A stretch of DNA of 64,000 nt, taken from Dinoroseobacter shibae DFL 12 = DSM 16493 (GTDB lineage: Bacteria; Pseudomonadota; Alphaproteobacteria; Rhodobacterales; Rhodobacteraceae). Each line of letters begins with the position of its first letter. Within the stretch, counting starts at the first letter, position 1. The stretch covers positions 2,046,001-2,110,000 of the forward strand of contig NC_009952.1 in assembly GCF_000018145.1 (NCBI RefSeq), read 5' to 3'. Of the stretch, positions 2,152 through 28,108 are shown one piece after another. The notes beneath the pieces were generated by a model that had not been told where the DNA came from, made no database searches, and saw only the letters and a program-made list of their open reading frames with translations. A program made the position numbers and the translations under genes.

Positions 2152-3948
2152 TCAGGCGGAGGCCGGGGTCAGCCCGGTGATCTGCGCGCTCCATTCCCAG
2201 ATCTGCCAGGCCCAATCCTCGTCATAGGTGGCCTCGTGAGACTGCTTGATCTCGTCGGTATCGAGGTAGAGCCCGCTCTGGCCTTCGTAGTCCGGTGCGG
2301 TGGCGAGGCTGGCGAGGTAGACGGCGGAAAACTCCGGCGAGATCATCCGCTGTTGCGCGCGTTCGCGGGCCTGGGCGGGGACCTGGGGCGCGCCGTCGGT
2401 GTTGCGGGTCGAGATGCCCGTGCGGACCACCCCGGGATGGATCGCGTTCACGGTCACGTTGGTGCCGTCCAGCAGGGCGGCCATGGCGTAGGTGATCTGC
2501 AAATTCATGAACTTGGCCCGGCAATAGGCCTCGCCCGTGCGATAGCCGCTCTCCATCTGCAGGTCGTGCATGTCCGGCAGGGAGCGGCGGTGCCAGTCGG
2601 AATTCACCATGATGATCCGCGCCGCCGGGGCCGCCTTCAGCGGGCCCGCCAGCAGGTTGGTCAGCAAGAAGGGCGCGAAATGGTTGATCGCCAGGGTGGC
2701 CTCGACCCCGTCCTCGGTCAGGCGCCGGGTGGGGAAGTTCGCGCCCGCATTGTTGATCAGGATGTCGATCCGCGGAAAGCGCGTGGCGAGGTCGGCGGCG
2801 AGGGTGCGGATCCGGGCAAAGGACATCAGGTCGGCCTGGATGAAATGGCCGGGCACGGTGTGGCGGCCTTCGGCCAGGGCCGCTTCCCAGGCTTCCCCGG
2901 CCTCGGCATTGCGGGCGATGCCCACCACCGTGGCCCCGAGCCGCGACAGCAGCAGGCTGGTCGCGCGGCCGATGCCGGAGGTCACGCCGGTGATCACCGC
3001 GGTCTTGCCGGCGAGCAGTTTTTGCCCCAACTCCACTGCCTTGACGACCGGGTTGATCTTCTCGGGCAGCGGCGGGAGGGTGCCGTCGGCGCGCAGGTCC
3101 TTCATCACCTGCTGCATCGTCTCGGCGAGGCTGACCCAGATCGGCCGCGTCGGGGTGACGCCGGTCAGGCGCGCGAGCTTGTCCGTGGCCAGCACCGGGT
3201 CCGCGACCTGGTGGGGCGGGCGGAGCTTGTCCTGCGGCGTGGCCTCGTCGTTCAGCAGCCGCGCGAGCCGGCCCAGCTCCTGGTCCAGGGTCCGGGCGGC
3301 GAGGGCCGCGGGGGCGGCGATGTTGAACACCTGCCCCCCTGCGCGGTCGTGCGTGCCGAGGGTGGCCAGGGCCGTGGCCACGTCCCGGGCATCGACCGGG
3401 TGGAACCGGGCGGGCGACGGGGCGTCGTCGATCAGGATGCGGCGGAAGAGGGCCTTGGCCTCGGCGCTGTCGGGGGCGAGGATCATCGGCGCGCGCAGGA
3501 TTGTCCAGTCGAGCCCCGCGCCGGCGCGCAGGCTCTCCTCCAGCGCGAGGGCCGCCGCCGCAGGTGGGGCGAGGTCGGCGGGCGCGGCGGTGGCCGAGCG
3601 TTCCAGCAGCGTCTTGTCGGCCAGAAGCGCGGGGTCGTAGATATCGGCGCGCCCCAGCAGGACGAACCGGCCGCACCCGGCCTTGCCCGCCGCAACCCGC
3701 AGCTTGTCCAGACGTTTGAGCAGCGCCGGGGCCGCGTCCGGCGCGACCGTCGCCAGGTCCACCGCGCAGATCACGTCCACCCCCGCCAGCGCCCTGGCCA
3801 GCACGTCCGCACGGGTGGGCCAGGCCCGGCTGGCCACCCCATTGACGGGGCTGTCCGAGAAGGCCAGCACCTCGTGCCCCGCGGCCACAAGGGTCGCGGC
3901 GAGGCGATGCCCGACCGCGCCCGCCGCATCCGTCACAAGGTATTTCAT
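2152..3948 (-). CDS. double Rossmann-fold protein: degenerate NmrA/epimerase-like domain fused to an SDR
   Basis: 598 residues in two halves. The N-terminal half (1-~290) is an extended-SDR/NmrA-like fold starting MKYLVTDAAGAVG, in which the first Gly of the TGxxGxxG fingerprint is Asp. Where Tyr-x-x-x-Lys is expected there is an Ala/Leu-rich stretch, so it is probably non-catalytic or NAD(P)-sensing. The C-terminal half (~315-598) is a complete SDR of the retinol-dehydrogenase/WW-oxidoreductase type: TGVTSGIG, NNAG, VNSDWH and YCRAK (Tyr near 474). It is the last gene of the minus-strand synthase operon, 25 bases after the epimerase-like gene. A two-domain reductase with one dead site may bind its partner epimerase or hold two ends of a substrate; that is inference. 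Confidence 0.8.
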   Translation of the reverse strand: MKYLVTDAAGAVGHRLAATLVAAGHEVLAFSDSPVNGVASRAWPTRADVLARALAGVDVICAVDLATVAPDAAPALLKRLDKLRVAAGKAGCGRFVLLGRADIYDPALLADKTLLERSATAAPADLAPPAAAALALEESLRAGAGLDWTILRAPMILAPDSAEAKALFRRILIDDAPSPARFHPVDARDVATALATLGTHDRAGGQVFNIAAPAALAARTLDQELGRLARLLNDEATPQDKLRPPHQVADPVLATDKLARLTGVTPTRPIWVSLAETMQQVMKDLRADGTLPPLPEKINPVVKAVELGQKLLAGKTAVITGVTSGIGRATSLLLSRLGATVVGIARNAEAGEAWEAALAEGRHTVPGHFIQADLMSFARIRTLAADLATRFPRIDILINNAGANFPTRRLTEDGVEATLAINHFAPFLLTNLLAGPLKAAPAARIIMVNSDWHRRSLPDMHDLQMESGYRTGEAYCRAKFMNLQITYAMAALLDGTNVTVNAIHPGVVRTGISTRNTDGAPQVPAQARERAQQRMISPEFSAVYLASLATAPDYEGQSGLYLDTDEIKQSHEATYDEDWAWQIWEWSAQITGLTPASA

Positions 3949-3973
3949 CGCCTGTTTTCCCCGTTCATCTCGA

Positions 3974-4936
3974 TCAGTCGCCGACCATGTGCGCCGGCAG
4001 CTTGATGCTGGCCGAGGAGTAGAACTCCAACCGGCCGAGCACCTCGGTAATGCAGGATTTCACGTCCACCCGGGGTGCCCAGCCAAGCGCGCGCAGCTTG
4101 CGCGGCTCGAACTTGCACAGGCCGAGATTGTTGCGCTCGGCGATGTCCCGGTGAGGATTGTCGCTCTTGCCGACATTCATGATGTCCCAGATATGGGCCT
4201 GCACGTCGTAGATCGTGATCGGCTCGCTGCCGGCCACGAGGAAGCACTGGTTCGCGGCCTCGGGATGCTCGCCGACCAGCAACGCCGCCGCCGCGATGTC
4301 GGAGCCGTGGGCCCATTGCATCGTGTCCCACATCCGGCGCTGGACCTCGATGGTCTCGGGTTGCTGCAGGATCGAGATGATCATCTGCTCCACGAAGGGG
4401 CATTTGCGGCCCGCCACCACGGTCGGGCGCAGGATGGCATAGTCCTGGCCGTCGCGGGCCTGGGCCTCGAACACCGCATCCTCGGCGGCGATCAGCGACT
4501 CGCCCAGCGCCACCTGTTGCGGGTTGCCATGGGCCTCGCGCAGGGCATCGTCCAGCAGCGGCCACATGGCGGGCGCGCGGTGCGGGGTGTAGACGTTGTT
4601 CGAGCTACACAGCACGACACGCTGCACCCGGCCCGCCGCATGGCGCAGCAGGTTGCGGGTGCCCTCGGCGTTCACATGCATCATGTGATCGGCCGACATC
4701 GCCGGGGGCGGGCCCACCAGGGCGCAATGGTAGATGATGTCGACCCCCTCCACCGCCTCGGCGAGGGAGATGTCGTCCGACAGCTCCCCCATCACGATCT
4801 CGATCCGGTCGCGGAAATTGATGCGGTGCAGGCTGTCCGGCAGGGACAGCACGCGCACGTCATGGTCGGTCTGCATCAGTCCTTCGAGGACATATTGCCC
4901 GATGGCGCCGGTCGGTCCGGTCACGAGAATGCGCAC
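3974..4936 (-). CDS. NAD-dependent epimerase/dehydratase-like (extended SDR) protein
   Basis: 320 residues. The N terminus MRILVTGPTGAIG is a good extended-SDR dinucleotide site, and the CSSNNVY segment is like the catalytic Ser/Thr region of UDP-sugar epimerases. However, the position normally holding Tyr-x-x-x-Lys reads NPQQVALGESL, with neither residue present, so classical epimerase chemistry is doubtful. It follows the TPR gene by 68 bases and precedes the double-Rossmann gene by 25 bases on the same strand. Family members act on nucleotide sugars, 3-beta-hydroxysteroids or aryl alcohols. In this locus a carbonyl/hydroxyl modification of a lipid or its headgroup is possible, but the missing dyad keeps that open. 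Confidence 0.8.
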   Translation of the reverse strand: MRILVTGPTGAIGQYVLEGLMQTDHDVRVLSLPDSLHRINFRDRIEIVMGELSDDISLAEAVEGVDIIYHCALVGPPPAMSADHMMHVNAEGTRNLLRHAAGRVQRVVLCSSNNVYTPHRAPAMWPLLDDALREAHGNPQQVALGESLIAAEDAVFEAQARDGQDYAILRPTVVAGRKCPFVEQMIISILQQPETIEVQRRMWDTMQWAHGSDIAAAALLVGEHPEAANQCFLVAGSEPITIYDVQAHIWDIMNVGKSDNPHRDIAERNNLGLCKFEPRKLRALGWAPRVDVKSCITEVLGRLEFYSSASIKLPAHMVGD

Positions 4937-5004: not shown

Positions 5005-6432
5005 TCAGGACTGGGCGCCCGGGGGGGTGCCCCGCCGCCGGGCGATCAGGTTGCGCAACCGGCCGCCCCCGCCACCGCGCGGCGGGATCACCTCCCCGGT
5101 CACGCCGCCGGCGGCCGCCGGGGCGGTCCCGGCCGCTTGCTGGGCGCGCCGCTCCTGGATGCGGGCGCGCAATCCGCCGCCGGCCTGGGGCCCCGCCGCG
5201 GTGCCGGTCGCATTGTTGGCGCGCCGCTGCTGGGCAAGCCGCTGCAACACCTGGCGACGCCGCTCCGCATTGGGACCGTCGCGCCGCTCCGCCCGGGCGG
5301 CCCTGCGCCGTTCGCGCGCCTCGGCCGGATCCTGGGCCTGGCGCTGCGCGACCTGCTCGGCCCGGCGCGCCTCGAACGCGTCGGTGTAGATCTTCATCAG
5401 GTCCGCGCCCGTCGCCTTGGGGTTGGCGGCCTTCTGGGCGTCGATCCTGGCCAGCATCTCGTCGCCGCCTTCGCGCAGGGCCGAGACCGCCGCGCGATAG
5501 GATTTCTCCGCCGCGCTCCATTTCTCTTCGGCCACGAACGCGTCGCCATAGAGACGATGCACCAGCGAGGGCGTCCGCGCCCCGCGCGAGGAGCTTGCCA
5601 GCAGCGTCCGCGCCTCGGTCAGCTTGCCCTGCGGGATCAGCGCCTGGACCAGCGCGATCCGCGCCATGCCGCCGCGCTGCCCGGTGGTCAGGGGCCGCAA
5701 GGTCGCCTCGGCCCCGGCGTAATCCTCCGCCCGCAGGCGCATCCGGCCCAGCGACATGGTCAGGCGACGATTGTCGGGCTGGGCTTCGAGCGCGGTCTCG
5801 AGCACCTGGATCGCCTCGGCGGTATCCCCGGCGCGCATGCAGATATTGGCCAGCTGCACCGACGCGCCCTGGTCGTTCGGGTTCGCGGTGAGCGCCGCGC
5901 GCAGCTGCGCCTTGGCCTCTTCGGTCTTCTCGGTCCGCTGCAGCAGTGTGGCCAACTGGCGCCGGACACGGGCGGATTGCGGATCCACCTCCAGCGCGGT
6001 CTGCAGCACCTCGATCGCCGCCTCGGGCTTCTGGTTCTGGCCGTGCAGCCGTGCCAACCCCATCAGCGCGCGCATGTTGCGCGGATCGGCCTGCAGCGCC
6101 TTGTGGTAATGCGCCTCGGCATATTCGGCATTGCCGCCGCGCACGCCGATCTGGGCGCCCATCAGGGCGGCGGTGGTATTGCCCGGCTCGACCTCGAGCG
6201 CGCGCTCGACATACGGCGCGGCCTCTTCGAGCCGCTGCTCGCGCACCAGCGACATCGCGAAGGCCATCATCGCCCGGGTGTCCTGGGGGTCTGCCTCGAT
6301 CATCATCTGCAACTCGGCCCGCGCCTCGTCCGTGCGGCCCTCGCGCAGCAGACTGCGGACGTAGTTCATGGCTTCGTTCTGATTGCCACCAACTTGCTGA
6401 ACGTTCGGTGTCCATTCCTGAGTATCGGACAT
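5005..6432 (-). CDS. tetratricopeptide-repeat protein with a basic, Gly/Arg-rich tail
   Basis: 475 residues with the start at MSDTQEWTPN, chosen because AGAGGAG lies seven bases upstream; a longer in-frame start would lack this site. Residues ~15-300 are consecutive TPR units (for example LREGRTDEARAELQMMIEAD and ALEVEPGNTTAALMGAQ), giving a superhelical protein-interaction scaffold. The C-terminal ~130 residues are Arg/Ala/Gln-rich (ARERRRAARAERR) and end in a Gly/Arg segment, probably disordered and strongly basic. There is no signal peptide, so it is expected in the cytoplasm. It lies between the propeller-epimerase and the epimerase-like gene in the synthase operon, and a role as assembly platform for the pathway enzymes is plausible but unproven. 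Confidence 0.85.
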   Translation of the reverse strand: MSDTQEWTPNVQQVGGNQNEAMNYVRSLLREGRTDEARAELQMMIEADPQDTRAMMAFAMSLVREQRLEEAAPYVERALEVEPGNTTAALMGAQIGVRGGNAEYAEAHYHKALQADPRNMRALMGLARLHGQNQKPEAAIEVLQTALEVDPQSARVRRQLATLLQRTEKTEEAKAQLRAALTANPNDQGASVQLANICMRAGDTAEAIQVLETALEAQPDNRRLTMSLGRMRLRAEDYAGAEATLRPLTTGQRGGMARIALVQALIPQGKLTEARTLLASSSRGARTPSLVHRLYGDAFVAEEKWSAAEKSYRAAVSALREGGDEMLARIDAQKAANPKATGADLMKIYTDAFEARRAEQVAQRQAQDPAEARERRRAARAERRDGPNAERRRQVLQRLAQQRRANNATGTAAGPQAGGGLRARIQERRAQQAAGTAPAAAGGVTGEVIPPRGGGGGRLRNLIARRRGTPPGAQS

Positions 6433-6490
6433 AGACGTTGCTCCTCTGTTGTTGTCGGACTGCATTCTGCACCCCGCTTCTTTCAATGTG

Positions 6491-9142
6491 TTACTCGGCG
6501 CTGATCGCAGCGCCCCTTGTCTCTTGTGGCAGGTCCGCCGCATCCGCGCCCTGCCCCTCGGTCAGGACGCGCTGGGGACGGTCGACACCCGGTCTGGCCA
6601 GGCGCGGCGCCTGGCCGGGGCGCGGAAGCTCCCCCTTGGCCTGGGCCGCCTCGACAATCTCCCGCAAGCCCTCTGCAAACGGGACTGAGGGATAAAATTT
6701 GAGTTTATTCTTCCCTTTCGAAATATCGTATTGTTGCACGTAGCGGCGCCAGACGCGGGTGCGGTCCGGGTCCAGGTCATCCTTGCTGGCCTTGCCGATC
6801 GCGATGCGGGTCATCCGCCCCATGTCACGATAGGTGATCACGTCCGGCCCCGCCACGGTGAAGGTCTCGTTCCGGGCGCCGGGCTCGAAACAGGCGCGCA
6901 GGATCGCCTCCACCGCGTCGGTGACATGGACGAACTGGCGCGGCTGCTCGCCCTGCTGGCCCTTGCCGAACTCCGGCTTGGGCGCTTCGGTCTTGACCAT
7001 GGGATCGACCAGCGGATCGCCCACGCCGTAGACAAGGGCAAAGCGCAGGATGGCGTGCTCGTAGCCGAACTTGCGGCCGTAGAACCGCGCGAGGTTCTCG
7101 CCCGCGATCTTGGTCATGCCGTAATCGGACAGGTCGTGCCCGCCATCCACACGCAGGGCGGAGCTTTCGTGGATCGGCCATTCCGCCTCGGCGAACTGGT
7201 TCTGGTAGGCCGCGACCGAGGAGCAGAACACAAAGCGCGCGCAGGCGCCCGCAGCGTTGACCGCCCGGATCAGGTTGTGGGTGCCTTCCACGTTGGTCTC
7301 GCGCAGCTCGACCAGGGTGCAGGACCCCGCCAGCCGCGCGGCCATGTGCAGGACAACCCGCGCGCCCTCCACCAGCCGGGCCAGCGCGTCGGTATCCCCC
7401 AGCCCGCCCTCGATCAGCTCGATCTGCGGGCTGTCGGGCAGCACGTCGCCCGTGCCCGGCAGCACCAGCGCCCGGATGGTGTAGCCCTTCGCCAACAGCT
7501 TGGGGATCAGGTTGGTGCCGATGAACCCGGTGCAGCCGGTGATCGCGATGTCGCAGCGGCGGGTGCGTTTGGGGGCGGCGATATCGGCCACCTCGGCGCT
7601 GCGCACGGGTGCGGGGGTCTCGTAGGGCTTGATGTTGTGATCGCCCAGCAGGATCTCGGTGCCGCCATCGGGGTTCTCGACATATTGCCAGCCCGAGGCG
7701 AAGCGCGCCGGGCTCTTGCCGCCGAACACGTTGGCGGTGCCCACCGCCAGGCCGTGCGGGGTGGAGACCATGGTGCGGCCGCCGTAATTGTAGGGGTTGT
7801 TGAGCCCGTTGATCGTCACCGGCTGCCAGTTCACCCCGTCCTTGGTGCGCCAGAGCTCAAAGCCGCCGCCGACCTCCGCCAGCTGCTCGAAGCTGACCGC
7901 GTCGACCAGTCGTTTGGCCGTGGGCGACGGGCGGTGGGCGTATTGCAGGAAGACCGACCAGTCGAAGGTGGTGACATAAAGCCAGCCGTCATGGACGCAC
8001 ATCCGCCAGGTGTAGCCCGAGAAGATGTTGTCGAAGCCCGGTGCGATCCCCGAGAGCGGGTATTTGAACCCCTGCGGCGTGTCCCGCGGCATCCCGATCA
8101 GCAGATCCCAGCTGTCATCGGGCCAGATGCGGATGATTTCCCCCGCGCCGGGACCCACCAGGTTGGTGCGGTCATAGCCGCCGTTCTGGATCGAGGAGCC
8201 GACATAGAGTGCGCCGTTGAATTCCACCATGCCCATGGCGATCTCCGACAGCGGGCCGCGATAGGCGCCCTTCTCGATCACCCGGCGCCATTGCAGGGGC
8301 CCGTCGCCGCACCGCGGCGTGGTCCAGACCTGGTAGCCTTCGTAATTGTTGAACGTCCCGGCATAGAGCTGGTCGTTGGCCTTGGCCATCATGAAGATGC
8401 CGTTGTTGGTCTTGTCGCCGAAGCCCAGGTCGCAGGCGGTCTCCCAGTTGCCGGGGCGCGGGTCGTTGGAGCGTTTCAGCACGCCGGTGCGGTTGGAGTT
8501 GAACTGGATCCCCTCGCCCGCGGGGGGCGCGTAGAGGTAGCCGTCGAAATCCACCAGCTCCCGGAAGGTCGAGATGTTGTCGTTGCCGATGCCCGGCTCG
8601 CAGGCAGGCTCGAAATTCAGCCCGTCCTCGGAGCGCAGGACATGGGCCGCACAGCCGCGCAGCACCGTGGACATGGTCGAGACATAAAGGTTCGGCTTGC
8701 GGTCGGACTTGCCCTGGAACACCCGCATGCCGCGGTAGCCGAGGTCGCGCGGCGCCTCCTCTCCGGTCTTGCCCTCGATCAGCGGCGAGCGATAGGCCAT
8801 TTCCCAACTGTCGTCTTCGGGGGTCCAGCGCCAGATCTGGCCCTGCATGTCGAGATCGCGCACATTGGGGGGCACGTCCACCGGCCAGGGGTCCAGCGCA
8901 GGCGGGTCAATCGGCGGGAAAAGGTTGAGCAGTTTGAATGAGTTGCGGGTCATGCCACAATAAAGACGGCCCTCGAAATACTCCATGCCGTGGACATAGG
9001 CATTGGCCGGATCGCCGATGCCGTTCTTGGCCAGACGCCGGAAATTGCCCGCGGTCAGGGCCGGGCCCGCCTCCGGGTGCGGCCGCACACCCCGCAGCGG
9101 ATCGACCCCGTCTGAGCCGCCTTCTTTACGCAAATCGGTCAC
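6491..9142 (-). CDS. beta-propeller / NAD-dependent epimerase fusion protein
   Basis: 883 residues starting with GTG; GTGA overlaps the stop of the upstream hydrolase, and MTDLRKEGG is the N terminus. Residues ~45-500 show repeated blade-like strands (GRLYCGM, GYLYAPP, QLYAGTF, ALYVGSS, WLYVTTF) and Asp-box-like turns (SEDGLNFE, TKDGVNWQ), indicating a beta-propeller. From ~528 it becomes an extended SDR: CDIAITGCTGFIG for NAD(P), CSSVAAY, and DYGMTK with Tyr near 674 and Lys near 678, so this half looks catalytically complete. There is no signal peptide, so the propeller should be cytoplasmic. Fusion of a sialidase/galactose-oxidase-like propeller to a nucleotide-sugar-type epimerase is unusual. 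The propeller may bind a carbohydrate or a carrier-linked substrate, which is inference. Confidence 0.85.
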   Translation of the reverse strand: MTDLRKEGGSDGVDPLRGVRPHPEAGPALTAGNFRRLAKNGIGDPANAYVHGMEYFEGRLYCGMTRNSFKLLNLFPPIDPPALDPWPVDVPPNVRDLDMQGQIWRWTPEDDSWEMAYRSPLIEGKTGEEAPRDLGYRGMRVFQGKSDRKPNLYVSTMSTVLRGCAAHVLRSEDGLNFEPACEPGIGNDNISTFRELVDFDGYLYAPPAGEGIQFNSNRTGVLKRSNDPRPGNWETACDLGFGDKTNNGIFMMAKANDQLYAGTFNNYEGYQVWTTPRCGDGPLQWRRVIEKGAYRGPLSEIAMGMVEFNGALYVGSSIQNGGYDRTNLVGPGAGEIIRIWPDDSWDLLIGMPRDTPQGFKYPLSGIAPGFDNIFSGYTWRMCVHDGWLYVTTFDWSVFLQYAHRPSPTAKRLVDAVSFEQLAEVGGGFELWRTKDGVNWQPVTINGLNNPYNYGGRTMVSTPHGLAVGTANVFGGKSPARFASGWQYVENPDGGTEILLGDHNIKPYETPAPVRSAEVADIAAPKRTRRCDIAITGCTGFIGTNLIPKLLAKGYTIRALVLPGTGDVLPDSPQIELIEGGLGDTDALARLVEGARVVLHMAARLAGSCTLVELRETNVEGTHNLIRAVNAAGACARFVFCSSVAAYQNQFAEAEWPIHESSALRVDGGHDLSDYGMTKIAGENLARFYGRKFGYEHAILRFALVYGVGDPLVDPMVKTEAPKPEFGKGQQGEQPRQFVHVTDAVEAILRACFEPGARNETFTVAGPDVITYRDMGRMTRIAIGKASKDDLDPDRTRVWRRYVQQYDISKGKNKLKFYPSVPFAEGLREIVEAAQAKGELPRPGQAPRLARPGVDRPQRVLTEGQGADAADLPQETRGAAISAE

Positions 9143-10056
9143 AAACTCGCTCGCTCATTCCTTGCCCAGCGCCGCCCGGGCGCCGGAGGGTCCGGTGTCT
9201 CCAGCGCACTCAGGAGCGCGTCCGGGTTCAGCAACGGGAAGAAGTGCCCCGCATTGGGCACCGTGATGCTGCGCGCCTCGGGCATCAACCGCGCCAGCCC
9301 GTCGCGCGTATCGAGATACCGCGAGCGCGCGCCGTAAACCAGGTCGACCCGGCGCGTGAAGCTGCGGATGCGGTCCTCTTCGAGCCCGGTGGGATCGTGC
9401 AGCTCCTCATGGGCGTTGGTGCGCGCCATCAACTCGCGCCAGCGGCGCATGGCGCGGGACGGGCGCCGGTCCCGACCCGCGCTCACGGGCATGGCCGCCA
9501 GCACCGCCGCATCGCCGAAGCCGCGGGCCTGCCCACGCGAGGGGCCGCGATCGGTCTCCAGCAGTTCCTCGAAAAACCCGTGGGCGACGCGGGGCAGCTC
9601 CCCCTCGATGACGATGCCCCGCTCCCGCAGGCGTTTTTGCAGGGCGGGCCAGGAGCTGGTATCCGACAAAGGCGGCATCTTCTGCAGCGAGGGCACCCAG
9701 GCATCCACGAGGCTCAGGCGCCGGACCTTGTCGGAGCCGATCGTGGCCACGGCGAGCGCCACGGCCCCGCCGAAGCTGTGCCCGATCACATGGGCCTTCT
9801 CGATCCCGAGATGGTCCATCAGTGCGACCACGTCGCCCGCCAGGTCCACCGTGCGGTAGCCTTCGTCGGACATCGCCGAGAACCCGTGCCCGCGCAAATC
9901 GAGCGCGGTCACGCGGAACCGCTCGGCCAGTTGGGGCGCCACGCGGAACCACCAGAAGGCGATGTTGCAGAACAACCCATGGATCAGCACCACATCGGGA
10001 CCGTCCCCGATCTGCTGGTAATGGATCGTATGCCCGCGCAGGGAAGCTCTCGGCAT
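9139..10056 (-). CDS. alpha/beta-fold hydrolase
   Basis: 305 residues with no signal peptide. It shows LIHGLFC (oxyanion HG motif), LDLRGHG, the nucleophile elbow GHSFGG (Ser94), DLVYG (acid region) and NAGHFFP (catalytic His). This is the pattern of haloperoxidase/epoxide-hydrolase/MhpC-type esterases. It starts three bases after the alkaline-phosphatase-superfamily gene and its stop overlaps the GTG of the propeller-epimerase gene, so it is translationally coupled on both sides. Neither synthase contains a thioesterase domain, so this enzyme is a natural candidate for releasing the acyl product from the carrier protein. That role is inferred from position only. Confidence 0.87.
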   Translation of the reverse strand: MPRASLRGHTIHYQQIGDGPDVVLIHGLFCNIAFWWFRVAPQLAERFRVTALDLRGHGFSAMSDEGYRTVDLAGDVVALMDHLGIEKAHVIGHSFGGAVALAVATIGSDKVRRLSLVDAWVPSLQKMPPLSDTSSWPALQKRLRERGIVIEGELPRVAHGFFEELLETDRGPSRGQARGFGDAAVLAAMPVSAGRDRRPSRAMRRWRELMARTNAHEELHDPTGLEEDRIRSFTRRVDLVYGARSRYLDTRDGLARLMPEARSITVPNAGHFFPLLNPDALLSALETPDPPAPGRRWARNERASL

Positions 10057-10059
10057 GGC

Positions 10060-11664
10060 TCAGAGATACCCGAGGGATTTCAGGCGTTCGCGGATCTGCT
10101 CTTCGGCGTCGCCGGTCAGGGCCGCGTCGTCGGTATCGCCCGCCGCCGCCCCCTCGCCCGCGGTATAACGGATCGGGTTGTCAGCCTTGTAGGCCTCGGC
10201 GAAGGCCTGCTCGGCCACCTTGCCCTCCATCTCCGAGGGCACCTCGACCCCGCAGGAATAGAGCGCCGTGGGCGCCACGTCGGCGATCTGCAGCCGGTCG
10301 AGCGCCGTGCCCGCCGCGATCCCCGGCCCGGTGGCCACGAAGATGCCGTCCGGGTGGTGGGTGGCATAGGGCACGCGCCGGTCCTTGATCGGCTGGTCCG
10401 CGCGCAGCACCGACAGGAAGCTGTAATCATGGAGCTGCAGGGTCAGGTCCGGGGCGCGCTCGGTCTGGGTGCCGGGGAAGGCATCTTCGCGCTTGAACAC
10501 CGACTTGATCACCGGCTTGCCGGTCTCGGGGTCGGTGAAGGCCAGAAGCTGCGCGATCAGGTCGTCGCGGAACGCCTCGTACGCCGCATCGGTGACGCCG
10601 GGATCGCCCGGCTTGGCCGCGCGGCGGATGAAGATCGCGTTGGAGGAGGAACTGAGCGAATAAGCCTTGGTCTCGGCCCAGTCGATCAGGGTGCTGGCCT
10701 CGGTATTCTCGTCGAGCGCCACGCGGCCCTGGTCGTCCATTGCCACGCCCGCGTTCCAGGTCAGGAGCCCCGCATGTTCCAGGAAGGTATTGGCATAGAA
10801 GATCCGCGTGCCCGAGCGGGTAAAGCCGTGATCGGACACGATGAAGACCTGCGCCTGGGGCCCGGCCTTGTCGATGATCTGCACCAGGTAGTCGTCCACG
10901 TTGCGGAAATATTGCAGCACCAGCTCCCGTGCCGCCACCGACTCCGGCGTGGTGTAGTCGTCCCGGCTGACCGGGTCGATCAGGTGCCAGCAGAGGTGCT
11001 GGATCCGGTCGACGCCGTCGAACAGAACGGCTGTCAGCTCTGACGGCTCTTCCTCCATCAGGGTCAGCAGGATGTCCTGCCAGCGCTGTTCCCGCGTGAT
11101 GTGGAACTGCACCCAATCGGTCAGCTGGTTCTCCGACAGGCCCTGCACGGCCTTGCGCTCATGCTGCCAGTCGGTGGACATCTCGGAGGCCTTGAAGACC
11201 CCCTTGGCCTTCAGCATCTTGAAGGTCTCGCGCGGGTGGATGGCGCGGCCGAGATAGGACCAGGGCACATAGCCCGGGATCACCACCCCGTCGATCGGCT
11301 TGGCCGGGAACATCACCGGGTAGTTCAGGGTCGTCGCCCGCTTGCCGGCGGCGCTCGCGATCTGCCAGATGGTCGGCACCTTCACATCCGCCGAGGTCGC
11401 CAGCGTGTAGCTGGGCTTGGACCCTTCGCGGTCGACCCGGATGAAGTCGAACACACCGTGATTGCCGGGGCTGCGCCCGGTCATCAGCGTGGCCCAGGCC
11501 GGCGGGGTCAGCGGGTGGATCGTCGAGGCCAGGATCCCGCGCGCGCCTTCGGCCATGATACGCCCCAAATTGGGCATGACCCCCTCCGCGACCAGGTGGT
11601 CGAGCATGTCGTAGGTCGCCCCATCAAGGCCAATGATAACCGTCTGAATTTTCGTCTGTGACAT
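10060..11664 (-). CDS. alkaline-phosphatase-superfamily phosphodiesterase/phosphatase
   Basis: 534 residues of the type I phosphodiesterase/nucleotide pyrophosphatase family. The metal-site Asp lies in IIGLDGATYD near the N terminus. The nucleophile region is HPLTPPAWATLMTGRSPGNHG with a Thr nucleophile. Further metal ligands are in DGVDRIQHLCWH, VSDHGF and THHPDG. There is no signal peptide, so it acts in the cytoplasm. Relatives hydrolyse phosphate mono- or diesters, and some transfer phospho-headgroups. It is 14 bases after the ACP gene and three before the hydrolase. With FkbH and a sulfotransferase in the same locus, removal or transfer of a phosphate or sulfate headgroup would make sense. 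The exact reaction is not readable. Confidence 0.85.
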   Translation of the reverse strand: MSQTKIQTVIIGLDGATYDMLDHLVAEGVMPNLGRIMAEGARGILASTIHPLTPPAWATLMTGRSPGNHGVFDFIRVDREGSKPSYTLATSADVKVPTIWQIASAAGKRATTLNYPVMFPAKPIDGVVIPGYVPWSYLGRAIHPRETFKMLKAKGVFKASEMSTDWQHERKAVQGLSENQLTDWVQFHITREQRWQDILLTLMEEEPSELTAVLFDGVDRIQHLCWHLIDPVSRDDYTTPESVAARELVLQYFRNVDDYLVQIIDKAGPQAQVFIVSDHGFTRSGTRIFYANTFLEHAGLLTWNAGVAMDDQGRVALDENTEASTLIDWAETKAYSLSSSSNAIFIRRAAKPGDPGVTDAAYEAFRDDLIAQLLAFTDPETGKPVIKSVFKREDAFPGTQTERAPDLTLQLHDYSFLSVLRADQPIKDRRVPYATHHPDGIFVATGPGIAAGTALDRLQIADVAPTALYSCGVEVPSEMEGKVAEQAFAEAYKADNPIRYTAGEGAAAGDTDDAALTGDAEEQIRERLKSLGYL

Positions 11665-11678: not shown

Positions 11679-11969
11679 TCAGGCGTTCTGCCGGGCGCTG
11701 AGCGCGACCACCGCTTTGAGGATATCGTCTACGGTCATATCCTTGAGAAGCTGATCCTCTTCGCGCATCTTCCGAAACAGCTGGTCGCCCAGCCCGTAAT
11801 TCTGTTGCAACTCGGAAATCAGGTAGACGAGGCTGATGGATTCCACCCCGAGGTCGAGCACCTTACTCTCGGGTTTCAGGTCGATCTCGTCCTCGCCCAG
11901 GTCGTCGGCAAGATCCTCGAAAATCTCCTGCATCACCTTGTAGGCGTCATCATAGCTCACGGGTGTCAT
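11679..11969 (-). CDS. free-standing acyl carrier protein
   Basis: 96 residues, acidic and helical, ending in an Ala/Arg tail. The phosphopantetheine site is LGVESISLVYL with Ser44, where the usual D-S is E-S. The length fits discrete ACPs of polyketide and lipid pathways. It sits 19 bases after the second synthase and 14 before the phosphatase-like gene. The synthase pair already carries two internal ACPs, so a separate ACP suggests a special starter or extender unit; the FkbH-like protein upstream would be an obvious loader with a glyceryl group. The phosphopantetheinyl transferase fused to the second synthase probably activates it. Function is inferred from family and context. Confidence 0.9.
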   Translation of the reverse strand: MTPVSYDDAYKVMQEIFEDLADDLGEDEIDLKPESKVLDLGVESISLVYLISELQQNYGLGDQLFRKMREEDQLLKDMTVDDILKAVVALSARQNA

Positions 11970-19800: not shown

Positions 19801-22800
19801 GAGCCACCCAACAGGCACAGGAACTGCTGGATACCGGAGCGTCCCTTCATGTCTGCGGTCAGGGCGAGATGGGGCTTGTCCTCCAGAATGCGGTTGGTCA
19901 GGCGCGACAGGACGGCCCCCGGCCCGATCTCAAGGAAAAGCCGCGCGCCCGCGTCGTGCATCGCGCGGACGCTGCCGAGGAAATCCACCGGATCGACCAG
20001 GTGCCGGGCCAGCTGCGCGCGCACGTCCTCCGGCACCTCGGGATACACCTGTGCGGTGGCATTGGCATAGACCACGCGCCCGGGTGCGGCGATCTCGGCG
20101 GTCTCCAGCGCGGCGGCCAGCCGGTCGCGGGCCGGGGCCACACAATCCGAATGGAACCCGCAGGCCACGGGCAAAAGCCTGGCACTCAGCCCCGCGGCAC
20201 TCAGCCGCTGCTCGGCGGCCAGAACCGCCTGGGTCGGCCCGGCGATCACCGTCTGATCCGGCGCGTTCATGTTGGCCAGCGTCACCTCGGGCGCATCGCC
20301 CAGGGCCGCGCGCACCGCCTCCGGCCCCGCATTGACCGCCGCCATGGTGCCCAGGTCGTCGCCGCCCGCCTGCACGATGGCATCGCCGCGCGCATGGGCC
20401 AGCCCCAGCAGGGTCGCCGCATCGAAACTGCCCGCCGCGTGGAGCGCGGTGTATTCCCCGAAACTGTGCCCGGCCATCCGGTGGGCCTCCAGACCGAAGC
20501 TCCGCACCAGGTTCAGCAGCGCGAGCGACACGGCCCCGATCGCGGGCTGGGCCACGTCCGTGCGCTTCAATGCCTCGATCTGCGCGTCACGCTCCTCAGG
20601 ATCGAGGGTGGGCCGCGGGAAGATCCGCTCCGACAGGGGCGTGTCCAGCCGCGCCGACAGGGTCCGTGTCGCCGCCTCCAGGTCCTCGCGCACCTGCGGG
20701 AAGGTCATGGTCAGGTCCGCCGCCATGCCGGGATACTGCGACCCCTGCCCCGGGAAGAGGAACGCCACCTGCTCGGGCGTCACCGGCGCCTCGGCAGAGA
20801 AAAACGCACCCATGGGATCGACCGAGCGCAGATCGCCCGCGTCCGAGCGCAGCCCCTCGGCCGCCCGGGCAATGCGCGCGCTGGCATCCTCGAGCGAGCC
20901 CGCCACGATCGCGAACCGCGCCTTGGCGCTCGGGTCGAACCGCTTGGCCAGGCTCGCCGCAACATCCGCCGCGCGCACACCGCTGGGGGCTTGCGCCATG
21001 GCCGCGGAGGCCCGTTTCAGCGCGTCGGCAAGATCCGTCTGCGAGGCGGCCGAGAACACGAACAGCTCATGGGTCCAGTCCCGCCGGAACGGGGCCTGGT
21101 GCCGGGGCAGGTAGCCGCCGGTATATTCCTCCAGCACCACGTGGAAATTCGTGCCGCCAAAGCCGAAGGCACTCACCCCCGCCCGGCGCGGCGTGTCGGT
21201 CGGGTTGAGCCAGGGCCGCGTCTCGGTCAGCACGTAGAAAGGGCTGTTGGGAAAATCCGCCGACGGGTTCGGCTCGGTGACATTGAGGGTCGCGGGCAGC
21301 ACCCGGTGATGCAGCGCCATGGCCATCTTGATCATGCCTGCGCAACCCGCCGCCGCTTTGGTATGGCCGATCATCGACTTGACCGACCCCACGCCGCAGA
21401 ACTGCCGGTCGTCGCGGGCCTCGGCAAAGACCTTAGACAGGCTCTGGATCTCGGTGCGGTCGCCGACCACGGTGCCGGTGCCATGCGCCTCCACCGCGCC
21501 CACGGTGCCCGGCGAGATCCCCGCATGGGCATAGGCCCGGCGCAGCGCTTCCTGCTGGCCCTCGGCCCGCGGCGCCGTCAGGGACAAATCCTTGCCGTCC
21601 GACGACCCCGCAACCCCGCGCAGCACCGCGTAGATCCGGTCGCCCGCCGCCTCGGCCGCATCAAGACGCCGCAGCACCATCATCGCCAGGCCCTCGGAGA
21701 TCGCGATCCCGTCCGCGCTGGCATCGAAAGTCCGGCAGCGGCCCCGGGGGGACAGCGCCCGCGTCTTGGAAAACGCCACAAAATCAAAGGGGTTCTGGAA
21801 GCTGTCGGCGCCGCCGACGATCACCATGTCCGAGGTATGGTTCTCCAACTCCCGCGAGGCCATCATCACGGCGGCGAGCGACGAGCCACAAGCCGCGTCC
21901 ACCGTGAAGTTCACACCGCCCAGATCGAACCGGTTCGCCACGCGCCCGGCAATGACGTTCAGCAGGATCCCGGGGAAGCTGTCCTCGGTCCAGGTCGGCA
22001 GCCGGGCATCGGCCACCTCGGTCATGGCGCCATTGATCGCGGGCATGGACGAGCGCACCGCGTAACGCTGGCCCAAGGGCCCCGCGCCGCCGCCCACACC
22101 GATGATGACGGAGGTCTTGCGCCGCAGTTCCGCATCCTCGATCACGCCGTCCTTGAAGCCCGCGTTCTCGAGGGCCTGGCGCACCGTCTCCAGCGCCAGA
22201 AGCTGCAGCGGCTCGATACTCGGCATGGTCTTGGGCGGTATGCCGTATTTGACCGGGTTGAAATCGATCTCGTCGAGAAAACCGCCCCATTTGGAATAGA
22301 TCTTGTCCGGCGCGTCGCGGTTCTCGTCGAAATACCGCCGCCAGTCCCAGCGTCGCTCCGGCACCTCCTCGATCGCGTCCACCGCGTCGAGGATGTTCTC
22401 CCAATAGGCCGCGAAATCCCGCGCCTTGGGCAGGATCGTGCCCACCCCGGTGATCGCGATCCGCGCGCCGGGGCCTTCCTCGGGCGGGGTCATGGGCCGG
22501 GCCGCGGGCGCGGGTGCGGCCGCCTGCAACAGCGCCGCGGAGTCGGTGCAGATCGCGCCGTGCAACGCGGCAATCGTCGTGGGCTCGGAATGCAGGCTCG
22601 CCGCCTGCCCGATCATGTAGACGCCGAGCTTTTCCTGCGCCTCCGGCGTCATGGCGACGAATTTCTCCGCCCCCGCGACCTTGCCGTAATCCGGGTTGCG
22701 GTCGATCCCCTTGGAGGCGATCCGCGACCGGCCGACATTCAGCCGCTCCAACCGGTCCTTGATCTCGTCCGGGTCGACCTTTTCCGAGCGCAGCCGCGCC

Positions 22801-24548
22801 TTTTCGGCGAAGAACTCGTCCACGATCGGGCTTTCGACCACGCGGGTCGCATGCCCCGGCGCGGATTCCAGCAGCATCGTCTTGGCCGAGGTCAGCGCCA
22901 GCTCCTGGTACTTCTGCAGCACCGCGCCGCTGGCGACCGCCTCGCGCGTCAGGATATAGCCCGTGCCGACCACGACACCGATCTTCGCCCCCCGCGCCGC
23001 CAGCCCCGCCGAGAGCGCCGAGACCATCGCGCCGGAGGTGGCGTCATGCACCCCGCCCGCGAAAAGAAGCTCGCAATCGATCGGCGCGTCCGGGCCGTAG
23101 TAAGCCTCCAGCGCGTCGATGGCCTGCTGCCACAGAACGGCGCTGGACCGCGGGCCCACATGGCTGCCGCATTCGCGCCCCTCGAAGATGAACCGCCGCG
23201 CGCCGCTTTCGAGAAACAGCGCCAGCAGCCCCGGCGACGGCACGTGCAGCCAGGTGGGGATGCCTTCGGCCTCCAGCGCCAGCGCCTGGTCGGGCCGTCC
23301 GCCCGCAATCAGGGCGAAATCGGGTTTATGGGCGGCGATCACCGCTGTCTGTTCGGCCCGCAAGGCGTCGTCCACGAACCCCAGGATCCCCACGCCCAGG
23401 GGCTTGCCGCCGATCCGCGCCTTGGTCTCTTCGAGCAGCGCAGCGCATTCCGCCTCGCGCATCAGCGCAAACGCCAAAAACGGCAGCGCCCCGCCCTCGG
23501 CCACCGACACGGCAAACTCCGCCACATCGCTGACCCGGGTCATCGGACCCTGGATGATGGGATAACGCGTGCCCGTCACCTCCGTCAGGGGGCTGCCCTC
23601 GGCGAGCGGCGTGGTCGCGCGCGCCTGGGCCACCAGCGCCTCGGCGCCCGCCGCGAGCCCGTCGAGCAGCGCGGGCAAGGTGCCGAACCGCGCCTTGAGC
23701 CCGGCGGCAAAAGCCGCGTCCTGCCCCACGAGCCAGACCGGATCGTCGGCATTCACCGCCGCCTTCACCGCGGCGCGAAACGCCACCGGATCGCTGCCGG
23801 GAATGTCGAGCATGTCCAACGCCCGCGCAGGCTTGTGGTCGGCCCGCCAGAACACCCGATGCCCGGCGCCGAAATCCTGGCCCAGACAGTTGGTCTCGCT
23901 GCCATCCATCCGCGTGATCGCGCGCAGCATCGGCGAGGGCAACTCCGCCTCCTCGAAGGCGCAAAGTGGCCAGTCCAGCAGAATGCCCCGCGCCCCGGCC
24001 ACCTTCAGCGCGGCCGCCGTGTTGACCGACACTCCGCCGGCCGCGATCACCGGCAAATCGGTTGCTTTCGTCAAGCGCTGGAGCAGCAGGAACGTGGTCT
24101 CGTCCCCGACCCGTCCGCCCGCCTCGTGCCCCTTGGCCACGACCCCGTCGACCCCGGCAGCCTCCGCCGCGGCGAGGAAGGTGGTATCGATGAGCTCCAC
24201 CAGAACACTTGCGTCCGGAACCGCGGCGCGCACAGCGTCCACGGCGCAGGCGAGCGAGGTCGCGTCCTGGGGAACGAGAATGACACAAGCGGGCTCCGAC
24301 ACGGACTGTGCTGCACCTGCAACAAACTCCGCCGCGGATCCGCTGGACAGCTTCAGCCCCCAGCGTCCGCGGGCCTTGGCCGCGACGTCCGTCAGTGCCC
24401 GGCGAACCGCTGGCGCAGCCGCATCCGCAAACTCGAGGTCGAGAATCCCCCAATGGCCCGCACGGCTGGCGGAAATCGCAATCCCCGGAGTGATCTTGTT
24501 GGGAACCGAACTGGCGAAGATCAGAAAATCACTCTTCGTCAATGGCAT
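16881..24548 (-). CDS. multidomain lipid/polyketide synthase: NMO/ER-NMO/ER-KS-AT-ACP-ACP-KR
   Basis: 2555 residues starting at MPLTKSDFLIF, with GGAG nine bases before the ATG. Two nitronate-monooxygenase/PfaD-type flavin barrels come first: ~10-300 with AKGHEAGGRVG (His near 143) and ~325-640 with FEGRECGSHVG (near 455). KS (~695-1150) has VDAACGSSL with Cys887, EAHGTGTVVGD and KSMIGHTKAAAG. AT (~1258-1560) has FLFPGQGSQ and GHSFGEYTALH with Ser1362. After a Pro/Ala linker come two ACPs (1799-1886 and 1907-1994; Ser1837 and Ser1945 in LGVDSIKR). The KR (~2040-2530) has VTGGARGI and QGDYGAANE (Tyr2452). The parts match PfaA plus PfaD of PUFA-type secondary-lipid synthases, but the ER leads the chain instead of being a separate protein. 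It probably builds a reduced or partly unsaturated acyl chain iteratively with the downstream partner. Confidence 0.9.
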   Translation of the reverse strand: MPLTKSDFLIFASSVPNKITPGIAISASRAGHWGILDLEFADAAAPAVRRALTDVAAKARGRWGLKLSSGSAAEFVAGAAQSVSEPACVILVPQDATSLACAVDAVRAAVPDASVLVELIDTTFLAAAEAAGVDGVVAKGHEAGGRVGDETTFLLLQRLTKATDLPVIAAGGVSVNTAAALKVAGARGILLDWPLCAFEEAELPSPMLRAITRMDGSETNCLGQDFGAGHRVFWRADHKPARALDMLDIPGSDPVAFRAAVKAAVNADDPVWLVGQDAAFAAGLKARFGTLPALLDGLAAGAEALVAQARATTPLAEGSPLTEVTGTRYPIIQGPMTRVSDVAEFAVSVAEGGALPFLAFALMREAECAALLEETKARIGGKPLGVGILGFVDDALRAEQTAVIAAHKPDFALIAGGRPDQALALEAEGIPTWLHVPSPGLLALFLESGARRFIFEGRECGSHVGPRSSAVLWQQAIDALEAYYGPDAPIDCELLFAGGVHDATSGAMVSALSAGLAARGAKIGVVVGTGYILTREAVASGAVLQKYQELALTSAKTMLLESAPGHATRVVESPIVDEFFAEKARLRSEKVDPDEIKDRLERLNVGRSRIASKGIDRNPDYGKVAGAEKFVAMTPEAQEKLGVYMIGQAASLHSEPTTIAALHGAICTDSAALLQAAAPAPAARPMTPPEEGPGARIAITGVGTILPKARDFAAYWENILDAVDAIEEVPERRWDWRRYFDENRDAPDKIYSKWGGFLDEIDFNPVKYGIPPKTMPSIEPLQLLALETVRQALENAGFKDGVIEDAELRRKTSVIIGVGGGAGPLGQRYAVRSSMPAINGAMTEVADARLPTWTEDSFPGILLNVIAGRVANRFDLGGVNFTVDAACGSSLAAVMMASRELENHTSDMVIVGGADSFQNPFDFVAFSKTRALSPRGRCRTFDASADGIAISEGLAMMVLRRLDAAEAAGDRIYAVLRGVAGSSDGKDLSLTAPRAEGQQEALRRAYAHAGISPGTVGAVEAHGTGTVVGDRTEIQSLSKVFAEARDDRQFCGVGSVKSMIGHTKAAAGCAGMIKMAMALHHRVLPATLNVTEPNPSADFPNSPFYVLTETRPWLNPTDTPRRAGVSAFGFGGTNFHVVLEEYTGGYLPRHQAPFRRDWTHELFVFSAASQTDLADALKRASAAMAQAPSGVRAADVAASLAKRFDPSAKARFAIVAGSLEDASARIARAAEGLRSDAGDLRSVDPMGAFFSAEAPVTPEQVAFLFPGQGSQYPGMAADLTMTFPQVREDLEAATRTLSARLDTPLSERIFPRPTLDPEERDAQIEALKRTDVAQPAIGAVSLALLNLVRSFGLEAHRMAGHSFGEYTALHAAGSFDAATLLGLAHARGDAIVQAGGDDLGTMAAVNAGPEAVRAALGDAPEVTLANMNAPDQTVIAGPTQAVLAAEQRLSAAGLSARLLPVACGFHSDCVAPARDRLAAALETAEIAAPGRVVYANATAQVYPEVPEDVRAQLARHLVDPVDFLGSVRAMHDAGARLFLEIGPGAVLSRLTNRILEDKPHLALTADMKGRSGIQQFLCLLGGSAAAGLEIDLARLWDGRETRDLDVTGWNLSLPEDPQRAMLWKLDAANARPIDGVPPRKGFAARLEEDPMPQTAPVPTPPPAAAPAASADPAQLDAPRPAPVVAPAGPATALGAASQPVSAALADSVMKRHQELMAKFLDNNRAVMMQWLAAGQAAPGVAAPMPVPHAAAPVAPVPTPPAVAPAPAPSPAPAPQAAPAAAQPQPVATPAPVPVPEPALSETAVTDALLALISDRTGYPTDMLDPDLNLEADLGVDSIKRVEILGALRGDLLPDAGEAAREKMGPVSRERTVRGIVAKFMEVVAEFATPATAPAPEVAASAPATPALSETAVTDALLALISDRTGYPTDMLDPDLNLEADLGVDSIKRVEILGALRGDLLPDAGEAAREKMGPVSRERTVRGIVAKFMEVVAEFTAPATAPAPAAAATPVAAQAEAPLAVDPDSWRPRFIMSARPVPAPAAENWIVPGATYILTDDEAGVAEAVAAHLQSQGAGVRLLSPATLDFSDDAPLRAAVREMDGAVAGVFHLAPLRPEPLFEEMDRDAWRASVDRCTRAFYSLLNELGEGLSARTDAVVVCASAMGGAFGFDGTVPAAPAAGGAPGLLKTVAKEWLDVQCRAVDFAPALEAARKAELVLAEAGFRDAPVEIGYLDEARHGLFAEPAPLGAEDPVTLDLPPGAVVLVTGGARGITAKIARHLAELHKPHFVLAGSTPPPEGPEAPEIAGIAEDRALKAALIAAAKAAGRPITPAAIEADYRATLKARDIRSAMAAIAAAGATAEYVACDVRDQDALEAMVADIYARHGRIDGVLHGAGVIEDKLVLDKTVESFDNVTRTKTESAFALSRALRPEGLKFLVFFTSVAGRFGNRGQGDYGAANETVSKLARVLDARWPGRVTAVSWGPWDSGGMVSAEIKAQFDAMNIEPIDPRLGVRALEFEITRGRASAPEVVWGRGPWETDAETYARTYGAGGTREAAE
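18567..18830 (-). repeat. ACP repeat copy 2 (within the first synthase)
   Basis: This is the second of two 88-codon carrier-protein units, offset by 324 bases from the first (18891-19154). The translated units are identical over all 88 residues. I counted 17 base differences in 264, all silent. Both carry the Ser in LGVDSIKR. Confidence 0.95.
18891..19154 (-). repeat. ACP repeat copy 1 (within the first synthase)
   Basis: First of the two tandem carrier-protein units in the synthase gene, identical in protein to the unit at 18567-18830. The linker between the two units is Ala/Pro/Glu-rich and differs from the flanking linkers. Confidence 0.95.
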
Positions 24549-25114: not shown

Positions 25115-26833
25115 TTACTCCGCCGCGACATCCGCGGCGGCCCCCGACTGGTCGGCCATGTAGTCGTTCACGCATTTCGCGATCTTGAAATAGCCCGCGC
25201 GCGTGTAGTGGTCGCTGTCCTGGAAATCCTCTTCCAGCAGGACCTCGTCCAGATCGACCAGATGGGCCTGGGCGTGGCCCGCGCAGAACGCCTTGCACAT
25301 CGCGTTATAGGCCGCGCGCATCTCGCCCGTCCGCTCTGCCTGCATCCCGGTCTTGGTCGCCGCCGTCAGCACAAAGACCTGTGCGTCCGGCTTCACGAGG
25401 CTCATCGCCCGCTCCATGCTCCGGCGCGTCAGTTCAAGGCTCTCCTCCAGCGTGTAGCGCCGGTGATAGAAGGACTTGGCAAACCACAACGCCTGGTCGG
25501 ACTTGATGAACTTCTTCAGCGTGCGCGGCGGCACCTTGACCAGGTATTCCCCGCCCCACTCCTTGCCGCCGAAGGTAAAGAACGTGTCCCCCGGCACCGC
25601 GTAATAGAGCGACAGCAGCACGACATCGGAGTCCGCCAGGGCAACATCAAGATCCTCCATGTCCTGCCAGGACCAGGTGGGAAACTTCTTCAACGTCTGA
25701 TCATGTTTCAAAGGCTTGCGCGGGTTCAGGAAAAACCCCGGATCGTCATAGCGCACGAGGTATCCGCGATCCTCCTTGTTGACGAATTCATGCCGGTTGG
25801 TGCCGCAGTAAAACGACACCTGCAGCAGGTCGCACCCGCCGACAAGGCACAGGGTCCGATCGTCCTGCTCGGAAAACACCTGGTCCGACGACGACGCCTC
25901 CGCGATCCAGTCCACCTCCGCGCCTGCGTCCAGCTGGCTTGCCACCGGGCCTTTGAAGTCGAATTCCGGCGCACCGATCCGCTGCCAGACGAACTGCTCC
26001 ACCCCCATGTTGAGCGTCCGGCATGAAAAGCAGAAATGATGCACGGTTGTGCCGCTGTATTTCACCCGCGCGGCAAAGAAGCCCACGATCCCGTAATCGC
26101 CGTAGCGGTCCGTCACCCGCACCAGCCCCGCATGCACCCCCGAGGTTGCCAGGAGCGCGTCCAACTCCGCCCGCGCCTCCGGCGTCTCCACCCGATTCTT
26201 GGTGAAGTTCAGCTGGTTCGTGCGATTGATCAGCTCCAGAACCCGGTCCATATGCGGCTCCAGATCGGTCAGGATCTCGACCCGGATCTGCGATTGGCGC
26301 AGGAACGCCATGTTGTCGAGCGCGCCCTCGGCTTGCGCGGCCTGCTTGGTCTCCAGCATCTTGTATTGGGCCAGTCGGGAATGGGCGCGGTCGTCCTTGC
26401 CCTTCATCTGCGGCAGATCGAGCAGCCCGGCGAGCGGCTGGGTCGCATCCACGCACATCAGCCCCTCGTTGAAGAACGCGGCCTCTTCGAGGTTCATGTG
26501 ATTGTCGTCGAGAAACACCACGTTCGGCGCCCGCAACCCCATGGCCGACAGCATGGTCTTGATCGCCTGGCCTTTCGGGGTCCAGTCGATATGGGGAAAC
26601 ACGATGTAGTCCCAGACGCCGAGCCTCTCCAACTCCGCCTTGGCGGTGTCGAAATCGTTCTTGGAACAGATCGACGACATGATCCCGCGATCCGCGAGCG
26701 TCTTGATCATCTCTGCATGGGCCGGGATCGGCGTAATGCCCCCTTCGGACAAGGTGCCCTGCCAGAAGGTCTCGTCCAGGTCCCAGATCACCAGCTTGAC
26801 CTGCGCCGTTATCGCCTCGAATCCCGTGCTCAC
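25115..26833 (-). CDS. FkbH-like HAD-IIIC protein with a C-terminal SGNH-like domain
   Basis: 572 residues. Residues ~12-200 are a HAD-IIIC/FkbH domain with VIWDLDETFWQG (catalytic Asp pair) and VVFLDDNHMN. Residues ~200-310 are the usual FkbH C-terminal segment (NRTNQLNFTKNR, RYGDYGIVGFF, FSCRTLNMGVEQ). FkbH proteins take 1,3-bisphosphoglycerate and load a glyceryl group on an ACP. The last ~230 residues look like an SGNH fold: LCLVGGCDLLQ where GDSL would be, and DSDHYTRAGY as the Asp-x-x-His block. The nucleophile position therefore appears to be Cys, not Ser. No glyceryl-ACP dehydrogenase or methyltransferase for methoxymalonyl formation is visible nearby, so the glyceryl group may be used directly, for example as a headgroup. 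It is 105 bases downstream of the sulfotransferase. Confidence 0.82.
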   Translation of the reverse strand: MSTGFEAITAQVKLVIWDLDETFWQGTLSEGGITPIPAHAEMIKTLADRGIMSSICSKNDFDTAKAELERLGVWDYIVFPHIDWTPKGQAIKTMLSAMGLRAPNVVFLDDNHMNLEEAAFFNEGLMCVDATQPLAGLLDLPQMKGKDDRAHSRLAQYKMLETKQAAQAEGALDNMAFLRQSQIRVEILTDLEPHMDRVLELINRTNQLNFTKNRVETPEARAELDALLATSGVHAGLVRVTDRYGDYGIVGFFAARVKYSGTTVHHFCFSCRTLNMGVEQFVWQRIGAPEFDFKGPVASQLDAGAEVDWIAEASSSDQVFSEQDDRTLCLVGGCDLLQVSFYCGTNRHEFVNKEDRGYLVRYDDPGFFLNPRKPLKHDQTLKKFPTWSWQDMEDLDVALADSDVVLLSLYYAVPGDTFFTFGGKEWGGEYLVKVPPRTLKKFIKSDQALWFAKSFYHRRYTLEESLELTRRSMERAMSLVKPDAQVFVLTAATKTGMQAERTGEMRAAYNAMCKAFCAGHAQAHLVDLDEVLLEEDFQDSDHYTRAGYFKIAKCVNDYMADQSGAAADVAAE

Positions 26834-27871: not shown

Positions 27872-28080
27872 GAAATCAACCTCTGAAATGGGGCGCACCG
27901 GGGCCGGGCACCGAAAATCCTGGATAAACGCACAGAACCACAGCCCCCGTGCTGCGCAAAGCGCCGGGACCGGAATTCGCGGCAAACGGGACAAACTGTG
28001 GCAGCCCCGCGCGCCCGGACCGCGCCGCACTGCCGGTTCTGGCACGCCCCGGTTAACAAATCCCCGCACCCCCAACGCAA

Positions 28081-28108
28081 GACGCCGCGCCCCGGGGGGC
28101 ACGGCGTC
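28081..28108 (-). terminator. hairpin terminator after lpdA
   Basis: A 13-base-pair GC-rich stem (GACGCCG... against ...CGGCGTC, one G-T wobble) with a two-base gap lies 23 bases past the lpdA stop. The T-run after it is weak on the minus strand, so termination may be partial. It separates the pyruvate dehydrogenase operon from the sulfotransferase gene. Confidence 0.6.

Follow-up and report, generated by a model that had tools for sequence, protein, structure and literature searches.

A two-subunit secondary-lipid synthase with a tandem FabK-like enoyl reductase and candidate sulfation genes in Dinoroseobacter shibae

What is made by a gene cluster of Dinoroseobacter shibae DFL 12 that combines two large synthases with a set of tailoring genes, and is its order of parts a new one? 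The window analysed here is a stretch of 64,000 nucleotides (NC_009952.1, positions 2,046,001 to 2,110,000); coordinates are window positions, and features of the cluster lie on the reverse strand unless marked (+). An earlier note, made from the sequence alone, had read this region as a PUFA-synthase-like secondary-lipid locus whose order of parts had not been described. The analysis indicates that the locus is real, is of a catalogued secondary-lipid type and is not a one-off. Probably the cluster makes a long-chain lipid and adds sulfate to it. As a whole, the explanation that we rate somewhat better than even is a sulfated, exported long-chain lipid, produced by a fatty-acid/polyketide synthase of the secondary-lipid (PUFA-synthase-like) kind that has two subunits, works iteratively and activates itself.

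Synthase 1 (S1; 16881..24548) has the order ER1-ER2-KS-AT-ACP-ACP-KR and synthase 2 (S2; 11989..16884) the order KS-AT-DH-PPTase. Both orders had been proposed in the earlier note and are borne out by Pfam, in which S1 appears as an NMO-type ER in two stretches followed by KS-AT, two ACPs and KR, and S2 as KS-AT-PS-DH-PPTase. Against the PfaA family TIGR02813 (omega_3_PfaA), S1 scores 1134.5 bits, above the cut-off of 1010.1, and S2 scores 589 bits, below it. The S1 score upholds the likeness to PUFA synthases, and the role of the locus as a secondary-lipid synthase is well supported. The most likely start of S1 is the ATG at 24548, which is preceded by a ribosome-binding-site-like stretch, and S2 starts at 16884, overlapping the stop of S1. 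Within S1, KS1 (21132..22463) retains its active-site Cys (DAACGSS), AT1 (19878..20762) has the motif GHSFGEY, the ACP pair (18582..19169) consists of two near-identical domains with DLGVDSIKRVEI occurring twice, and the KR domain (17100..17777) is recognized by Pfam. The motifs of KR, DH, ER2, PPTase, KS and AT are intact, and S1 has orthologs in other Rhodobacterales at the 50-68% level. In large open frames of the D. shibae genome, no KS domains other than KS1 and KS2 were found. A chain-length factor (KS-CLF didomain) was rejected, because there are two KS in all and each has its Cys; S2 is not a chain-length factor, since KS2 carries the active-site Cys (DAACASS). In a KS tree, where the PfaA and Hgl reference rows sit on long branches, the relatives of KS1 and of KS2 form separate groups, those of KS2 being one supported clade.

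The enoyl reductase part of S1 (22692..24530) had been taken for a fused PfaD. Sequence, structural model and Foldseek show instead a tandem FabK-like region, which matches the FabK family TIGR03151 and FabK structures, not the PfaD family. Its AlphaFold model has two barrels (pLDDT 88.7); with this model the best Foldseek match was FabK (E 9e-15), PfaD following at no better than E 3e-7. The PfaD family TIGR02814 has no match in the D. shibae genome, with positive controls in Fischerella and Sulfidibacter. A fused PfaD was therefore rejected as the ER of S1. Motif III, which bears the catalytic His of the ER (PMC13311796), reads RECGSH in ER2 and GGR, without His, in ER1. This division is general: RECG(G/S)H is found in ER2 in 62 of 62 cases, and ER1 has the His in one of 62. 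An ER pair with one barrel devoid of the catalytic His is a mechanistic oddity, and we infer that ER1 is a structural partner of ER2. The same features bear on the idea that the product is a membrane polyunsaturated fatty acid of the EPA/DHA kind. The passing score of S1 for TIGR02813 is what such a product would lead one to expect, but the locus has only two ACPs, one DH (a single PS-DH match in S2 and none in S1 by Pfam), a FabK-like ER and neither PfaD nor a chain-length factor. Moreover, published fatty-acid profiles of D. shibae contain ordinary C10-C18 acids and no long-chain PUFA (PMC7901474), and we consider this product highly improbable. Given that only C10-C18 acids have been published, the product of the locus must be scarce or have been missed by that method.

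The composition of S2 invites another reading. The fused DH-PPTase at its C-terminus is a point of resemblance to enediyne PKSs, and its KS-AT-DH-PPTase chain as a whole is similar to a portion of an enediyne synthase. Even so, it is decidedly unlikely that the product is a polyene or enediyne-like polyketide and not a lipid: the synthase is divided between two subunits and has a conserved ER, and no enediyne accessory genes came up when the neighbourhood was scanned with Pfam.

All the partners that the earlier note had named around the synthases were found by Pfam or NCBIfam. Next to S2 is a free acyl carrier protein (11679..11969; Pfam), the Ser44 of which is conserved in 23 of 23 aligned sequences. 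A type I phosphodiesterase of the alkaline phosphatase superfamily follows (10060..11664), whose putative metal ligands and Thr53 are shared by 18-19 of 19 sequences, and then an alpha/beta hydrolase, a thioesterase-like candidate (9139..10056), with Ser94 and His271 in 17 of 17. The next gene (6491..9142) encodes an N-terminal beta-propeller fused to an NAD-dependent epimerase/SDR (Pfam; propeller model pLDDT 86.9). In a fold search the propeller had 471 matches with E values up to 0.001; the ones listed were generic propellers with low TM. A TPR protein (5005..6543), an NAD-dependent epimerase/dehydratase (3974..4936; 59-71% in alphaproteobacterial and Lamprocystis clusters) and an epimerase-like + SDR fusion (2152..3948) complete this strand, all three being assigned by Pfam and by related clusters. 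An SDR (1344..2147, +) and a PHB-depolymerase-type esterase (386..1312, +) are homologous to SDRs and esterases of related clusters, among them the alphaproteobacterial and Lamprocystis ones. The cluster continues about 4.7 kb beyond the left edge of the window, with an M50/HlyD-type membrane protein (contig C1 of this genome, G000, 2041913-2045206) and a second, short sulfotransferase (C1, 2041261-2041860, +), and homologs of both flank related clusters; that of the membrane protein is present in alphaproteobacterial, Lamprocystis and several other clusters. The starts of neighbour genes, which come from a simple gene caller, are approximate.

The proposal of a single operon stands in part. 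From S1 to position 2152 the genes share a strand, with almost no space between them, but an FkbH-like gene and a sulfotransferase gene lie upstream of S1 across a gap of 570 bp, so these two need not share the S1 transcript; scanning this gap for sigma-70 promoters gave no match. The PDH genes further upstream (28131-33899) were rejected as cluster members, because they have no match in any related neighbourhood. Elsewhere in the window are a TRAP transporter with a fused DctQ-DctM and a DctP binding protein (35843-39262), and an unknown gene of 308 aa followed by a MoxR-like AAA ATPase (39322-41394).

When about 85,000 species genomes were scanned with the ER-ER region, at least 541 relatives were recovered. 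The best 80 of these, a set weighted to near relatives, extend across about a dozen phyla as judged by the titles of their records, and most of them are adjoined by S2. The nearest relatives among the matches listed are in Actibacterium, Rhodovulum, Ruegeria profundi and Lamprocystis. The distribution of ER-ER is patchy despite the many relatives: besides D. shibae, S2 occurs in three of 198 genomes of its own family and ER-ER in nine of 398 genomes of its own phylum. Where relatives have sequence downstream, a conserved cassette of S1, S2, free ACP, phosphodiesterase, hydrolase and propeller can be read, from Alphaproteobacteria to more distant groups; with identities of 30-50% it is found in Tectomicrobia, Chloroflexota, Planctomycetota, Actinomycetota and gammaproteobacteria. 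In the phylum sample, with the D. shibae genome excluded, the propeller is found in 3/9 genomes with ER-ER and in 0/388 others (P 8e-6), and it lies 13-22 kb from the ER-ER locus on the same contig. The earlier note had proposed a genome-wide search for co-occurrence of both synthases with the propeller-epimerase and the FkbH protein. Both synthases do recur with the propeller, but its fusion to the epimerase, as in the window, is confined to alphaproteobacterial and Lamprocystis clusters, and FkbH is not conserved in the neighbourhoods examined. Several related loci have features of their own. A Candidatus Brocadia genome (G215) has, on a contig (C109) other than that of the scan, a second locus (L130) where the synthase is accompanied by ACP, phosphodiesterase, hydrolase and propeller. 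In planctomycete relatives, the flanking genes encode a Rieske-type oxygenase and an S49 peptidase (L072:7290-9614). Around the S1 relatives of Melainabacteria are genes for a GT2/GT21-type glycosyltransferase and for a GH3-family enzyme (L077:8302-9600, L086:6582-8300), which suggests a glycolipid product for those loci.

The sulfotransferase upstream of S1 (26939..about 27874) belongs to Sulfotransfer_3 (PF13469). Its orthologs are contained in proteins of 828-843 aa near the clusters of Rhodovulum adriaticum, Ruegeria profundi and Lamprocystis (L034:7325-9856, L125:17298-19784, L148:13871-16360); the R. adriaticum protein has a PQQ-type propeller domain by Pfam, and a related frame of 820 aa is present in one genome (G112) away from the cluster. 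Sulfotransferases are enriched near ER-ER loci, with 22 seen against 1.5 expected in 15 genomes, a figure that uses rounded window sizes and takes in three genomes (G217, G226, G241) whose pair is on a contig other than that of the scanned synthase. For Fischerella and two other genomes, the contig that carries the propeller-sulfotransferase pair is not that of the scanned synthase, which speaks against the preferred reading. In a tree built with a profile seeded with cluster members, the sulfotransferases linked to a synthase group in a single clade (94/98), separate from CurM/OLS and from those other genomic sulfotransferases, only some of the total, that were placeable. In a Chromatiaceae genome, propeller and sulfotransferase genes are repeated side by side (L133; G226 contigs C28 and C105). 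On sequence grounds a sulfation step at the locus is moderately supported, and this part of the earlier proposal of a sulfated and/or glycerate-headed lipid is favoured by the single clade and by the second sulfotransferase beyond the left edge. The most distant clusters, those of Chloroflexota, Planctomycetota and Actinomycetota, have no linked sulfotransferase, implying that sulfation is an addition outside the ancestral core.

Sulfate could also be transient. The only PDB sequence relatives of the window sulfotransferase are OLS (E 1e-20) and CurM (E 1e-17), and this kinship would fit an ST-TE-like route in which sulfation merely activates the final acyl-ACP at its beta-hydroxyl, and hydrolysis and decarboxylation then expel the sulfate to leave a terminal alkene; the product would then be an unsulfated long-chain olefin. 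The catalytic acid of the CurM TE is placed after strand 6. An acid (D/E) that may correspond to it follows beta6 in 17 of 17 members of the cluster hydrolase family, compared among themselves, but an acid in this place occurs in other hydrolase families too. The CurM and OLS enzymes fall outside the linked clade, clusters that lack a linked sulfotransferase have the hydrolase as well, and the sulfotransferase tracks the propeller. We regard the olefin route as unlikely.

The FkbH-like protein (25115..26833), with a HAD part first and an SGNH-like C-terminus, is of doubtful cluster membership. It passes the NCBIfam cut-off (TIGR01686), has a DxDxT motif and adjoins the cluster, which would fit the loading of a glyceryl unit by FkbH on the free ACP and thereby a glycerate-headed sulfated lipid. 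By eye, GGCDLL occupies the expected GDS site of the SGNH-like part. Near the related clusters examined, however, the sole FkbH homolog was in R. adriaticum, a 27% match located about 12 kb upstream. Clusters without FkbH keep the free ACP, and the 570-bp gap parts FkbH from S1. FkbH was rejected as a core part since it is not conserved in related neighbourhoods, and it may be a local add-on. The glycerate half of the earlier proposal does not hold up, and a glycerate head is very unlikely.

For the preferred product, a sulfated and exported long-chain lipid, a course of synthesis can be proposed. The domains, the conserved active-site motifs, the conserved cassette and the dedicated sulfotransferase clade are observed; we infer every reaction, the chain length, the sulfation site and export. 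The PPTase of S2 would arm the ACPs, AT1 would load malonyl units, and KS1 would elongate the chain on the two ACPs of S1. Each step would be reduced by KR (S1), DH (S2) and the FMN-dependent ER2 (S1), with ER1 paired to it within the protein in a chiefly structural role, to give a mostly saturated long chain. S2 would probably perform the last condensation or the hand-over to the free ACP, and the alpha/beta hydrolase may release or transfer the chain. Reductases and epimerases would then modify it, one or both sulfotransferases would add a sulfate ester, and the HlyD/M50 membrane protein may help the product outward. More tentatively, with a likelihood that we place clearly short of even, the tandem-FabK, CLF-free two-subunit synthase may define a bacterial lipid class of wide occurrence and uncharacterised chemistry, in part of which sulfate is added by a dedicated clade of sulfotransferases with a beta-propeller partner.

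In Table 2 of Shulse and Allen (2011; PMC3098273), D. shibae DFL 12 is listed under "Type O" secondary lipid synthases with an uncharacterised product, and the type also includes Parvularcula bermudensis and Gloeobacter violaceus. The window locus is taken as the D. shibae Type O locus of that table, because KS1 and KS2 are the only KS in large open frames of the genome. This listing, together with the occurrence of ER-ER in at least 541 places, leaves the claim that the order of parts was undescribed without support. For Type O the text of that paper mentions neither a tailoring cassette nor a product. In the literature searched, no description of a conserved, partly sulfotransferase-bearing cassette was found, nor any D. 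shibae lipid or sulfotransferase product. Type O synthases have been catalogued since 2011 with no product assigned, and the cassette yields testable predictions in a cultured marine alga-associated bacterium. The same core is present in about a dozen phyla, so that solving the structure of a single product would give an annotation to hundreds of loci.

The comparison with Type O covers the PPTase motifs as defined in PMC3098273. There, the Type O PPTase has the P1b' motif hShxH and is without P0; the PPTase domain of S2 (12082..12588; Pfam) has ISIAH, of the P1b' type, and no hRxhLS (P0). At the P1a motif, x(G/D)xP, it has EDAGP, one residue longer, where relatives have DDTP and GGKP. With Pfa/PUFA synthases (Types A/B, PfaABCDE) the locus shares S1, a PfaA-family protein with KS-AT-tandem ACP-KR, but it is without PfaD and the chain-length factor, has one DH in place of two DH/isomerase domains, and possesses a fused FabK-like ER pair and a fused PPTase. 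Heterocyst glycolipid synthases (hgl, Type F) belong to the same secondary-lipid synthase family; their PfaD-type ER and their KS-CLF protein without a second Cys are both absent from the window locus. The CurM and OLS sulfotransferases (PDB 4gbm, 4gox), which are polyketide-pathway enzymes, are the nearest solved relatives of the cluster sulfotransferase, but they are fused domains and the window enzyme is free. The ERb-ERc heterodimer of the thraustochytrid PUFA synthase (PMC13311796) resembles S1 in having two TIM-barrel ER domains per synthase, possibly paired, whereas those of S1 are fused in tandem, are FabK-like and carry the catalytic His in the second only.
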